NCBI GenBank assembly: GCA_020723765.1
Contig: DYIF01000005.1
Span: 64,713 to 128,712, forward strand
Origin: Elusimicrobium minutum
GTDB taxonomy: Bacteria; Elusimicrobiota; Elusimicrobia; Elusimicrobiales; UBA9959
Direction of reading: 5' to 3'
Length of the DNA stretch: 64,000 bases
Shown here: piece after piece, positions 4,227 to 7,447 of the stretch
Layout: each line of letters starts with the position of its first letter
How positions within the stretch are numbered: the first letter of the stretch is position 1
The notes under the pieces: model-generated
The model's input: the letters and a program-made list of their open reading frames with translations, nothing else
Database searches by the model: none
Told to the model about the DNA's origin: nothing
Made by a program: the position numbers and the translations under genes

Positions 4227-5225
4227 TTACCTTTTTTTAAAACAGCACTCGTTTCCCCACAAATCGAGGTATCCAACTTTATCCTCCGATTTTACCTCGG
4301 CTATACCGTAAAAAAAAGAAGAAGCGTAATCGTATTTTAAAGGAATGACAAATTCTCCTTTTTTATTTATAAAACCGAATTTTTTGTTCGACTCCACCAT
4401 CGCAAATCCTTCGGAAAAGTTATTAACGTAATCGTAGGCCGGCTTTATTACCTCTACGCCGTTTTTATCGACAAATCCCCATTTGTCCTTAACCTTCACT
4501 CTCGCCATATCTTCATAAAACAAATCTACCTCGTCGTATTTAAAATCTATTATTTTTTTATCTTTTTTATTTATCGCTCCCCATTTGCCGTTAAGTTTTA
4601 CCCATGCCATATCTTCGACAAAACCCATTGTAGCCTGGTATTTCAAAGGTATCAGCTCTTTATCGTATTTGTCTATAAAACCCCACAAGCCGCCGACATT
4701 GTAAGCTATGTAATCGTCTTTTGTTATCTCTCTTTTCTGGTATCTTGTTTCAAAAGTGTCCACGTACGGATTTTTTATGTTTTTTTTTCTGAACTCCTCT
4801 ATAAGTTTTTTGGCTTCTTTTTTGTCGTAAGATATCTCTATTATTATGTTTCCCTTCTTATCTATGCCTCCCCATTTCTCTCCCATATTTACCATTGCGT
4901 ATCCGTTATAAAAAGGCCCGGCGTAATCGTATGAAGGATTTATGGCGAGGCTGCCGTCGTAATAACAATATCCCATAAGATCGTTTCTTATGCATCTTTT
5001 CATTATATAATCCGAAACATCTTTATAATAAAAATTCTTTTCCCCGTACTTGTTTATAAACTCCTGAGCCGTTTCGTCTTTTTGAGCCGGAGAAATAGAA
5101 GACGATTTTAAAATAACCATTGTTTTTTCAAAATCTTTTTTAACCTCTTCTTTAAAATCCGTTTTCTCCGAAGAAAAAAGAAAAATGGGCGTCGAGCATA
5201 ACAAAAAAACTAACGATTTATTCAT
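4227..5225 (-). CDS. Exported WG-repeat protein
   Basis: Signal peptide-like N-terminus; repeated WGxIDKxGxxxIxxxYD units (WGFIDKYDKELIPLKY, WGAINKKDKKIIDFKYD, WGFVDKNGVEVIKPAYD, FGFINKKGEFVIPLKYD). Confidence 0.88.
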   Translation of the reverse strand: MNKSLVFLLCSTPIFLFSSEKTDFKEEVKKDFEKTMVILKSSSISPAQKDETAQEFINKYGEKNFYYKDVSDYIMKRCIRNDLMGYCYYDGSLAINPSYDYAGPFYNGYAMVNMGEKWGGIDKKGNIIIEISYDKKEAKKLIEEFRKKNIKNPYVDTFETRYQKREITKDDYIAYNVGGLWGFIDKYDKELIPLKYQATMGFVEDMAWVKLNGKWGAINKKDKKIIDFKYDEVDLFYEDMARVKVKDKWGFVDKNGVEVIKPAYDYVNNFSEGFAMVESNKKFGFINKKGEFVIPLKYDYASSFFYGIAEVKSEDKVGYLDLWGNECCFKKR

Positions 5226-5234
5226 AGCGAAAAT

Positions 5235-5729
5235 TTATCTATAATTTGTAAATATCAAACTTACTCCGAAATCTTTCGATTTTAACATGGATATTACGGC
5301 CTGCAATTCGTCTTTCGACCTTGAAAAAACTCTTACTGTATCTCCCTGTATCTGAGGGGTTACCTTAAACTTTGCGTCTTTTATAAGTTTAACCATTTCT
5401 TTGGCCTTCTCCGAAGGGATTCCCTGTTGTATCTTGACTATCATTCTGGCTCTTGAACCCAAGGCGTTTTCTATTTTTTCGACGGTAAAATTTTTTAAAG
5501 GAAGCCCTCTTTTGCTCATTCTGGTCAAAAGAACGTCGTATAAAGATTTGACCTTGTATTCGTCTGAAGAGGTAAGATATATTTTATTTTCTTTTTTATC
5601 CACGGTTATCTCCGAGTTTGAGTCTTTAAAGTCGTATCTGTTGGAAACCTCTTTCAAAGCTATATTAACCGACTCGTCCACAAGCGTCATATCGACTTTG
5701 GATACCACATCGAAACTAAAATCCGCCAT
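5235..5729 (-). CDS. yajQ: YajQ family nucleotide-binding protein
   Basis: MADFSFDVVSKVDMTLVDESVNIALKEVSNRYDFKDSNSEI; GGAGG upstream. Confidence 0.93.
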   Translation of the reverse strand: MADFSFDVVSKVDMTLVDESVNIALKEVSNRYDFKDSNSEITVDKKENKIYLTSSDEYKVKSLYDVLLTRMSKRGLPLKNFTVEKIENALGSRARMIVKIQQGIPSEKAKEMVKLIKDAKFKVTPQIQGDTVRVFSRSKDELQAVISMLKSKDFGVSLIFTNYR

Positions 5730-5738
5730 ACCGCCTCC

Positions 5739-6743
5739 TTATTTAATCCTCGATATTTCTTCGGATACCCTGCAGGCTTCTTCGTAGACATAACAAGCGT
5801 CTTTACCGTAAAGCCAGGAAATACCGGGGCATCTCGAGCATATCGTTCTATAATTACATTTAATACATTTTTTAGGCTCCATTTCAAGTTTTTTCCTCAG
5901 TTTAATCGCTTGCTCGGATTTCAAAATATCCTTTATCTTCTTTTCTTTTAAACTTCCCAAAGAAAAAGGGAAAGCTAAACACGGCAAAACATTTCCGTAA
6001 GAGTCTATTCCTATAACGCTTTTCGCCGCTCCGCAGGAAACATAGTCGATTTTATCGAACGATTTATCGTAAGATTTTAAAATTCCTTTTTTAAAATTCT
6101 TTAAAAACTTAAAATCCGAAACCGATAATTCGGCGCAAGAAAGATCTCCGTCGTTTCGAGGGGTTATTATCGGGTCTATTTTAAAATCCAAATTATTGTC
6201 TTTGGCGAATTTCTTTATCCATTTTAACTCTCCGGCGTTTTGCCTCATAACGGGGGTTTTAACGGTTATCCTAAAACCCAATTTCCGGGCCTTTTTAATG
6301 TTATCTACGGTCAAATCGAAGCTGTCGTTGCCGGTAATTTTGTTATGTATGGTCTTTGAGCCGTAAAGGCTTACGTCCATATCTCTAAGTCCAAGATCAT
6401 AAATATCCTTTATTTTTTTAAAATCGCAGTTTAGAGAAGAAAAAAGCTTAACATAGAACTTATGCTTTAACGCCAGTTTAATTATATTTGAAATGTCTTT
6501 TCTCAAAAGAGGCTCTCCGCCCGTTATGTTTATAAATATGGTTCCGATTTCTTTTAATTCTTTGAATATTCTTTTTATTTCCCCTAAAGACAACTCTCTC
6601 TCCGGCTTATAATTTTTATTATGAGTTTCTACAAGATAGCAATGAAGGCAGGAGTTAACGCATCTTCTGGTAACCTCCAGGCTTACAAACAAAGGGATAT
6701 TATTTTTGAAATAAAAAGAATAAAGCTTTTCGGATAATCTCAT
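5739..6743 (-). CDS. Radical SAM/SPASM domain protein, putative peptide maturase
   Basis: SLEVTRRCVNSCLHCYLVE (CX3CX2C), NITGGEPLLRKDI; C-terminal SPASM-like Cys set (CGAAKSVIGIDSYGNVLPC...KKCIKCNYRTICSRCPG). Confidence 0.92.
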   Translation of the reverse strand: MRLSEKLYSFYFKNNIPLFVSLEVTRRCVNSCLHCYLVETHNKNYKPERELSLGEIKRIFKELKEIGTIFINITGGEPLLRKDISNIIKLALKHKFYVKLFSSLNCDFKKIKDIYDLGLRDMDVSLYGSKTIHNKITGNDSFDLTVDNIKKARKLGFRITVKTPVMRQNAGELKWIKKFAKDNNLDFKIDPIITPRNDGDLSCAELSVSDFKFLKNFKKGILKSYDKSFDKIDYVSCGAAKSVIGIDSYGNVLPCLAFPFSLGSLKEKKIKDILKSEQAIKLRKKLEMEPKKCIKCNYRTICSRCPGISWLYGKDACYVYEEACRVSEEISRIK

Positions 6744-7063
6744 CTTAATTTTCTTTTAAAAAATCTTATATTTTTTATAATAATATGAGCAAGATACCCC
6801 GGATATCCGTTAAAAAAAGAGCAAACCCTTCCCAAAACGTCTTTTTTTTCTATAAAATGCGTCTCCATATCGTCGTCGTTTGAAATCCATATTTTTTCTT
6901 TTTCCAAACCGATTATTCTATGGACATATAGATTATCCGAATATCTGTATAAAATCATATCTCCCAATTTAAGAGACGATAAACATTCTTCGTAAAAAAC
7001 CAAATCCCCGTCTTTTAAAAACGGGCGCATACTCGTACCTTTAAGTTTTACCGCTTTTAACAT
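6740..7063 (-). CDS. S26-type (SipW/Sec11-like, Ser/His) peptidase, putative leader peptidase
   Basis: MLKAVKLKGTSMRPFLKDGDLVFYEE...GDMILYRYSDNLYVHRIIG; ATG at 7063 is preferred over the track start at 7123, which overlaps the upstream peptide ORF. Confidence 0.82.
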   Translation of the reverse strand: MLKAVKLKGTSMRPFLKDGDLVFYEECLSSLKLGDMILYRYSDNLYVHRIIGLEKEKIWISNDDDMETHFIEKKDVLGRVCSFFNGYPGYLAHIIIKNIRFFKRKLR

Positions 7064-7065
7064 TT

Positions 7066-7203
7066 TTAAGATTTTTTTCTTATCGTTTTGCAGGCAAGCT
7101 GGTTTATGGGTCCCGTCTGGCATTTACCGCACGCCAGAGCCGCGGTTTCAAAAACCTTTTGAGTCTTCATTTTAGGCTTTATATATCTCTTTTTTTTACT
7201 CAT
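7066..7203 (-). CDS. Putative RiPP precursor peptide, 45 aa, three Cys (not in supplied ORF track)
   Basis: Hand translation: MSKKKRYIKPKMKTQKVFETAALACGKCQTGPINQLACKTIRKKS*. Start overlaps the pqqD-like stop by 8 nt; stop is 2 nt before the peptidase ATG. Confidence 0.78.
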   Translation of the reverse strand: MSKKKRYIKPKMKTQKVFETAALACGKCQTGPINQLACKTIRKKS

Positions 7204-7447
7204 CTATTATCCCCTTATCTTTAAACTCCGATATCAAATCCTCTAAATCTTTATCTACCGTCCGTTTATCGGCGTCGTAATTTGACAATATCTTTTCCGA
7301 TATTTTTTTGCGATCTAAACCTTTATCTATCGATTTAAAAACAAAGGAAGCCGTTTCGTTTAACTCGTGTATCTTTTCATTCGAAGGGTCTATTATAAAA
7401 ATTTCTCCATCGATTTCTCTCCATATTATTTTATCGGATATCTTCAT
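7196..7447 (-). CDS. PqqD-like peptide chaperone / RiPP recognition element
   Basis: 83 aa: MKISDKIIWREIDGEIFIIDPSNEKIHELNETASFVFKSIDKG...ILSNYD...DLEDLISEFKDKGII, the PqqD-family pattern. Confidence 0.88.
   Translation of the reverse strand: MKISDKIIWREIDGEIFIIDPSNEKIHELNETASFVFKSIDKGLDRKKISEKILSNYDADKRTVDKDLEDLISEFKDKGIIDE

Follow-up and report, generated by a model that had tools for sequence, protein, structure and literature searches.

Does the 45-codon open reading frame lodged between a PqqD-like gene and a peptidase gene in Elusimicrobium minutum encode a peptide and, if so, is that peptide the substrate of the radical SAM enzyme encoded beside it? The first-pass annotation of the window (the whole 64,000-nt stretch of DNA analysed) had proposed a RiPP precursor here, with the PqqD-like protein as its RRE and the radical SAM protein as its maturase. 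Our comparisons favour this reading with a probability of about 0.8: the frame would encode the precursor of a radical SAM RiPP served by an RRE, an S26 peptidase and a kinase, and the precursor would belong to a family absent from Pfam and NCBIfam.

The candidate precursor gene and its surroundings

The minus-strand frame at 7066-7203 translates to MSKKKRYIKPKMKTQKVFETAALACGKCQTGPINQLACKTIRKKS*. The frame overlaps the end of the PqqD-like gene by 8 nt, its ATG falling within the final codons there, and its stop codon is separated by two bases from the S26 ATG at 7063, exactly as first described. The S26 stop and the radical SAM start share an ATGA overlap, and pqqD, peptide, S26 and radical SAM genes form a tightly packed four-gene run in the window (Table 1), with a divergent endonuclease I gene (Pfam) upstream. 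A scan for promoters and terminators returned sites no more numerous than in shuffled sequence. The identities first given to the neighbours agreed with Pfam, which assigned them to PqqD, S24/S26 and Radical_SAM plus SPASM families, while the peptide had no fitting family in Pfam or NCBIfam.

On the same strand, yajQ (DUF520; window 5235-5729) starts about 10 nt past the radical SAM stop and may share a transcript with the cassette; the relatives tested did not have it next to their cassettes. Directly downstream of yajQ lies a minus-strand gene (4227-5225) whose product contains six WG repeats and has an N-terminus resembling a signal sequence.

Table 1. Features of the candidate RiPP locus, in window positions.
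Feature	Position	Strand	Basis
Radical SAM/SPASM maturase (predicted)	5739..6743	-	PF04055 7.6e-22, PF13186 9e-10
S26-family Ser-His peptidase, predicted leader peptidase	6740..7063	-	PF00717/PF10502
Precursor peptide gene (predicted), 45 aa	7066..7203	-	Translation; relatives in two phyla; pN/pS 0.24
Predicted core AALACGKCQTGPINQLACKTIRKKS, 25 aa, with C25, C28, C38 and C-terminal S45	7069..7143	-	Alignment
FET, codons 18-20, predicted P3-P1 of leader cleavage FET|A	7144..7152	-	LppA analogy
Putative RRE-recognition motif YxxPx[ILM] (YIKPKM), codons 7-12	7168..7185	-	Match to lasso/LPP leaders
PqqD-family discrete RRE, predicted leader-binding chaperone	7196..7447	-	PF05402 E=3.5e-13

Conservation and coding constraint

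Forty-five codons alone prove little, and it is conservation that lifts the frame above chance. In 150 related genomes searched by tblastn, relatives of the peptide with 58-82% identity (E 9e-13 to 1e-20) turned up in 37 further genomes from the window's family, spanning 13 genera. A profile search, with presence thresholds of our own choice and mostly on MAGs, in which absences can reflect assembly gaps, recovered the peptide in 56 of 342 Elusimicrobiota genomes (E<=2e-8, one extra match at 6e-4 being set aside) and in 11 of 291 Armatimonadota genomes, with up to three copies in each. The named carriers are Elusimicrobia/Elusimicrobiota, Endomicrobia and one Armatimonadota MAG; no relative was found in viral contigs. 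A conserved small frame at the same position in orthologous loci, to be expected of a precursor gene, was thus looked for and found.

The substitution pattern is likewise that of a coding sequence. Over 780 codon-aligned pairs, synonymous change was near saturation and nonsynonymous change low (pS=0.713, pN=0.170, pN/pS 0.24), with pN<pS in every pair. No other gene of the cassette is as well conserved as the peptide: the 58-82% identity among its relatives compares with about 22-44% for PqqD, 25-44% for the S26 protein and 29-39% for the radical SAM protein.

Anatomy of the peptide

The 63 distinct peptides from the two phyla share the consensus Y.KP....e..fEt.ALaCgKC..g.p..q..C......S, in which a leader of the layout Y7xxP10x[ILMV]12 followed by F18-E19-T20 precedes a conserved C-terminal half. 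Y7, K9, P10 and E19 are nearly invariant, and F18 and T20 mostly conserved. The three Cys residues reported at the outset are C25, C28 and C38, invariant in all 63 peptides; Leu23, at core position 3 after FET, is found throughout, and the C-terminal residue is Ser in 62 of the 63 and Tyr in the exception. Leaders of lasso and LPP precursors carry the motif [Y/W]xxPx[L/V/I..] (PMC13381572; PMC10368454; PMC12710340), in which YxxP has been characterised as the motif for lasso RREs (PMC12710340).

Two sites could serve for removal of the leader. ALA24|C25, an earlier idea based on the AxA rule, likewise fits the (-3,-1) pattern of S26 enzymes. Cleavage after FET20 is ranked above it because of the parallel with LPP, and is the most likely by analogy, with ALA24|C25 as the alternative.

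The predicted RRE, peptidase and maturase

The best NCBIfam match of the PqqD-like protein was lasso_PqqD_Strm (4.3e-9, below cut-off). The S26 protein matched the archaeal-type signal peptidase model (9.7e-11), and its best PDB match was SEC11A, with SpI matching too. Conservation of Ser in G[ST]SMxP, of His in HR[IV] and of a nearby Asp indicates that it is probably of the Ser-His type; no N-terminal membrane helix was evident in its sequence. The radical SAM protein retains CxxxCxxC and the SPASM residues C237, C255, C293, C296, C302 and C305. It scored far below every NCBIfam cut-off, and its AlphaFold model (pLDDT 90) had SkfB, SuiB, CteB and PqqE among its best PDB folds.

An HprK-like kinase as a fifth gene

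Beyond what the first-pass annotation described, sequence comparison of related loci indicates that a fifth gene, for an HprK-like kinase, belongs to the system. In 43 of 49 related loci, the gene immediately upstream of pqqD encodes a P-loop protein some 250-280 aa long, and in four of the other six the contig end cuts the locus. In the window genome the kinase gene is intact on another contig (G000:C6:106888-107619), outside the window. The protein weakly matched the HprK-related models TIGR04352 (2e-9) and TIGR04249 (ScmC). A phmmer search of PDB gave nothing useful for it, and fold comparison of its AlphaFold model (pLDDT 93.6) matched structures of PEPCK and HPr kinase/phosphatase. The residues H110-G125-G128-G130-K131-S132-D148-E149 of this protein, all invariant or close to it, are spaced exactly like H148-G163-G166-G168-K169-S170-D186-D187 in BsfK, a lasso kinase (PMC10368454). 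At one locus (G525:C2:833341-834125) the kinase is split over two overlapping frames, through a frameshift or an assembly error.

Gene orders and co-occurrence

The order of the genes differs among lineages. In the window's family it is kinase-pqqD-peptide-S26-rSAM, and in Endomicrobia and relatives kinase-pqqD-rSAM-peptide-S26; one genome (G239) has kinase-pqqD-rSAM and peptide-S26 on separate contigs. In Armatimonadota, loci that show an order have S26-pqqD-peptide, and all nine genomes tested carry the same radical SAM subfamily (E<=3e-97) and the kinase, both unlinked.

Presence and absence of the genes were compared by Fisher tests on counts that are not corrected for shared ancestry. Among Elusimicrobiota, with radical SAM presence set at E<=1e-90, 54 genomes had both peptide and maturase, two the peptide only, two the maturase only and 284 neither; for peptide and kinase the counts were 55, one (peptide only), three (kinase only) and 283. 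Armatimonadota gave ten genomes with both peptide and maturase, one with each alone and 279 with neither. At threshold, then, three genomes, two of Elusimicrobiota and one of Armatimonadota, have the peptide but no maturase; in one of these (G053) the contig stops just past the S26 gene. The 59 genomes of the window's family include 21 without the peptide; at the thresholds applied, all 21 lack the radical SAM gene and 19 the kinase as well, and loss therefore appears to have been largely joint. Co-occurrence across whole genomes, unlinked genes included, supports the assignment of precursor, RRE and maturase that was first made from the window.

Comparison with known systems

In Paenibacillus alginolyticus, the lpp cluster offers the closest experimentally studied parallel to the front end of the cassette. 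Its discrete RRE recognises YxxPx[LVI], the SipW-like S26 enzyme LppS cuts LppA at FET|AQS in an RRE-dependent manner, with F-3, E-2 and T-1 mutants impaired, and the HprK-like kinase LppK phosphorylates Ser3 of the core (PMC13381572). The present system has the same kinds of component: a discrete PqqD-type RRE, an HprK-like kinase, a predicted leader peptidase of the S26 archaeal/SipW Ser-His type, and a leader with YxxPx[LVI] and FET|A. The leaders agree in part: the LPP motif, YxxPxVLxHQxIxFETxxS, also has HQ and a YxxP-FET spacing two residues longer than in the peptide here. The cassette could be read as a member or close offshoot of LPP, modified chiefly by phosphorylation, with the radical SAM enzyme in a minor or secondary part. 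Several differences make this unlikely. The LPP system uses an NTP transferase and an exporter where ours has a radical SAM/SPASM maturase, and no NTP transferase, MsbA-like exporter or other dedicated exporter was found in the cassette. LPP precursors end in a variable C-terminus, in contrast to the conserved Cys core found here, and the phosphorylated Ser at core position 3 is replaced by Leu. LPP is confined to Bacillota, and 'radical SAM' is absent from its account (PMC13381572), whereas the present family occurs in Elusimicrobiota and Armatimonadota. The maturase cannot easily be regarded as optional, because its co-occurrence with the peptide is almost perfect in both phyla, even where unlinked. 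Membership of LPP proper was rejected on the conserved core and the missing core Ser3.

Phosphorylated lasso peptides of the paeninodin and Bsf type also share a discrete RRE, a YxxPxL leader, a C-terminal Ser and, with equal spacing, the HprK-like kinase motif H-GxxGxGKS-D[DE] (PMC10368454). They differ in having lasso cyclase C and a B2 peptidase instead of an S26 protein, a radical SAM protein and three conserved Cys residues. Neither an Asn-synthetase-like macrolactam cyclase C nor a B2 peptidase was present in the window cluster or in the cassettes listed for its relatives, and a lasso peptide was rejected on this account.

The maturase side points elsewhere, its modelled fold being that of SPASM-type RiPP maturases such as CteB and SkfB, which act on SCIFF ranthipeptides and sactipeptides. 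A SCIFF-related thioether precursor of the sactipeptide or ranthipeptide kind, the kinase having some other substrate, would suit that fold, the ACGKCQTG stretch, which resembles the Cys-rich SCIFF core, and a peptide as widespread and conserved as SCIFF. TIGR03973 (SCIFF) was matched by two of 22 alignment-member peptides, but the best E-value of 0.0066 is weak for 22 queries; other matches at E<=10 were to unrelated models. SCIFF peptides have six Cys in about 45 residues as against three here, which led us to reject membership, and their RRE is fused to the maturase rather than discrete. SCIFF systems are not known to include a kinase or an S26 peptidase. With the nearly invariant C-terminal Ser and the tight co-occurrence of the kinase also against it, we regard a SCIFF-related precursor as improbable.

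HprK-like and PqqD-like proteins also meet in the SynChlorMet and HPr-rel-A systems (TIGR04248-04250, TIGR04352), the former with a radical SAM protein as well. Matches to ScmC, ScmD and HprK_rel_A were weak and all far below cut-offs, the peptide matched no NCBIfam precursor, and the NCBIfam names of these systems include neither an S26 peptidase nor a CGKC core. No literature linking Elusimicrobia to such a system was found in a search that is thin on subscription journals. By the tests made, the cassette appears to be a member of none of these classes, with a front end like that of LPP and paeninodin and a maturase like those of sacti- and ranthipeptides. A second point that goes beyond the first-pass annotation is that the leader/core layout, with YxxPxL and FET|A, seems closely parallel to that of systems of the LPP/paeninodin type.

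That the operon simply happens to contain a small peptide with a regulatory or metal-binding (CxxC...C) role is a very remote alternative. The three conserved Cys residues and the basic tail would allow metal binding, but the leader-type YxxPxL/FET motif, and the retention of RRE, S26 protein and maturase alongside the peptide in two gene orders and unlinked, speak for a RiPP precursor. A chance open reading frame, suggested by the shortness of the frame and its overlap with pqqD, was rejected as having a negligible probability in view of the coding constraint in all 780 pairs and the identity kept across 13 genera.

Proposed pathway and product

The sequences themselves show the gene, its coding constraint, its motifs, the cassette and the co-occurrence of its parts. 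From homology we infer a RiPP pathway in which the peptide would be the substrate of all the enzymes encoded with it. The PqqD-type RRE would bind the leader at Y7xxPxM12 and present the peptide to the other enzymes. The HprK-like kinase would phosphorylate a hydroxyl, most likely that of the C-terminal Ser45; this residue is proposed because it is conserved and because known lasso kinases, such as those of the paeninodin type, modify the C-terminal Ser (PMC10368454), while the site used by LppK is Leu23 here. The radical SAM/SPASM enzyme would modify the core at its invariant CGKC...C, with Cys-derived thioether cross-links as the most likely result; thioether or sactipeptide chemistry is plausible from the modelled fold. 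The S26 Ser-His peptidase would then cut, most likely after F18-E19-T20, and free a basic core of 25 residues. The binding, phosphorylation and cleavage sites are proposed on the strength of YxxPx[ILM], FET|A, the nearly invariant final Ser and the LPP and lasso precedents. In one precursor (L179, G401:C17), Tyr replaces the final Ser and CGMC replaces CGKC; this natural variant could be used to test C-terminal phosphorylation.

Widespread conserved peptides such as SCIFF have been argued to be non-antimicrobial (PMC8326336). Carried over to the present family, in which conservation of the core is unusually strong, this favours a product with a housekeeping, signal or cofactor-like role over a variable antibiotic. 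More tentatively, and with the odds somewhat against so specific a picture, the family may form a RiPP class of its own, defined by a SPASM-cross-linked CGKC...C core together with C-terminal Ser phosphorylation, whose product, preserved with little change in two phyla, would serve their physiology as a shared cofactor, signal or surface-associated factor and not as an antimicrobial.

The precursor family is new to Pfam and NCBIfam, and few natural products have been characterised from the phyla in which it occurs. Two enzyme logics would meet in it: a front end of kinase, RRE and S26 peptidase, as in LPP and phosphorylated lasso peptides, and a maturase of the radical SAM/SPASM type. This combination was not found in the literature compared. 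Leader peptidases of the S26 type, which were reported in 2026 as a novelty in RiPP biosynthesis, would gain a second setting. That a tiny unannotated gene appears to feed a five-gene system kept almost unchanged in two phyla suggests an important modified peptide. Since the peptide outconserves the enzymes and the five genes are kept together even when dispersed, a physiological role is directly testable.

Variant loci and neighbouring genes

Two Armatimonadota genomes, G342 (L106, L185, L175) and G401 (L177-L179), have three diverged precursors each and one strong maturase match; several of these precursors adjoin genes for secreted or beta-propeller proteins. In G342, the kinase and pqqD have as neighbour a gene (L159, G342:C358, 2326-3420, minus strand) whose product combines a domain of the S26/signal-peptidase-like kind and a GNAT acetyltransferase. 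The GNAT part is ArsN1-like (NCBIfam 3e-8), and such a protein might acetylate the core at the N-terminus that its release creates.

At three Elusimicrobiota loci (L107, 6159-12125; L111, 6171-9536; L154, 8857-11568, plus strand), the S26 frame runs through into a large secreted protein, and at other loci a secreted protein starting with RIKTVE[WY]NFG is encoded close downstream of the S26 gene or the cassette. In many relatives within the window's family (L071, L073, L074 and similar loci), pseudopilin-like genes with an N-methylation motif precede the kinase, and genes for an Rrf2-like regulator and a large Fn3 secreted protein follow the radical SAM gene. It is possible that the cassette is tied to a pilus or secretion system.
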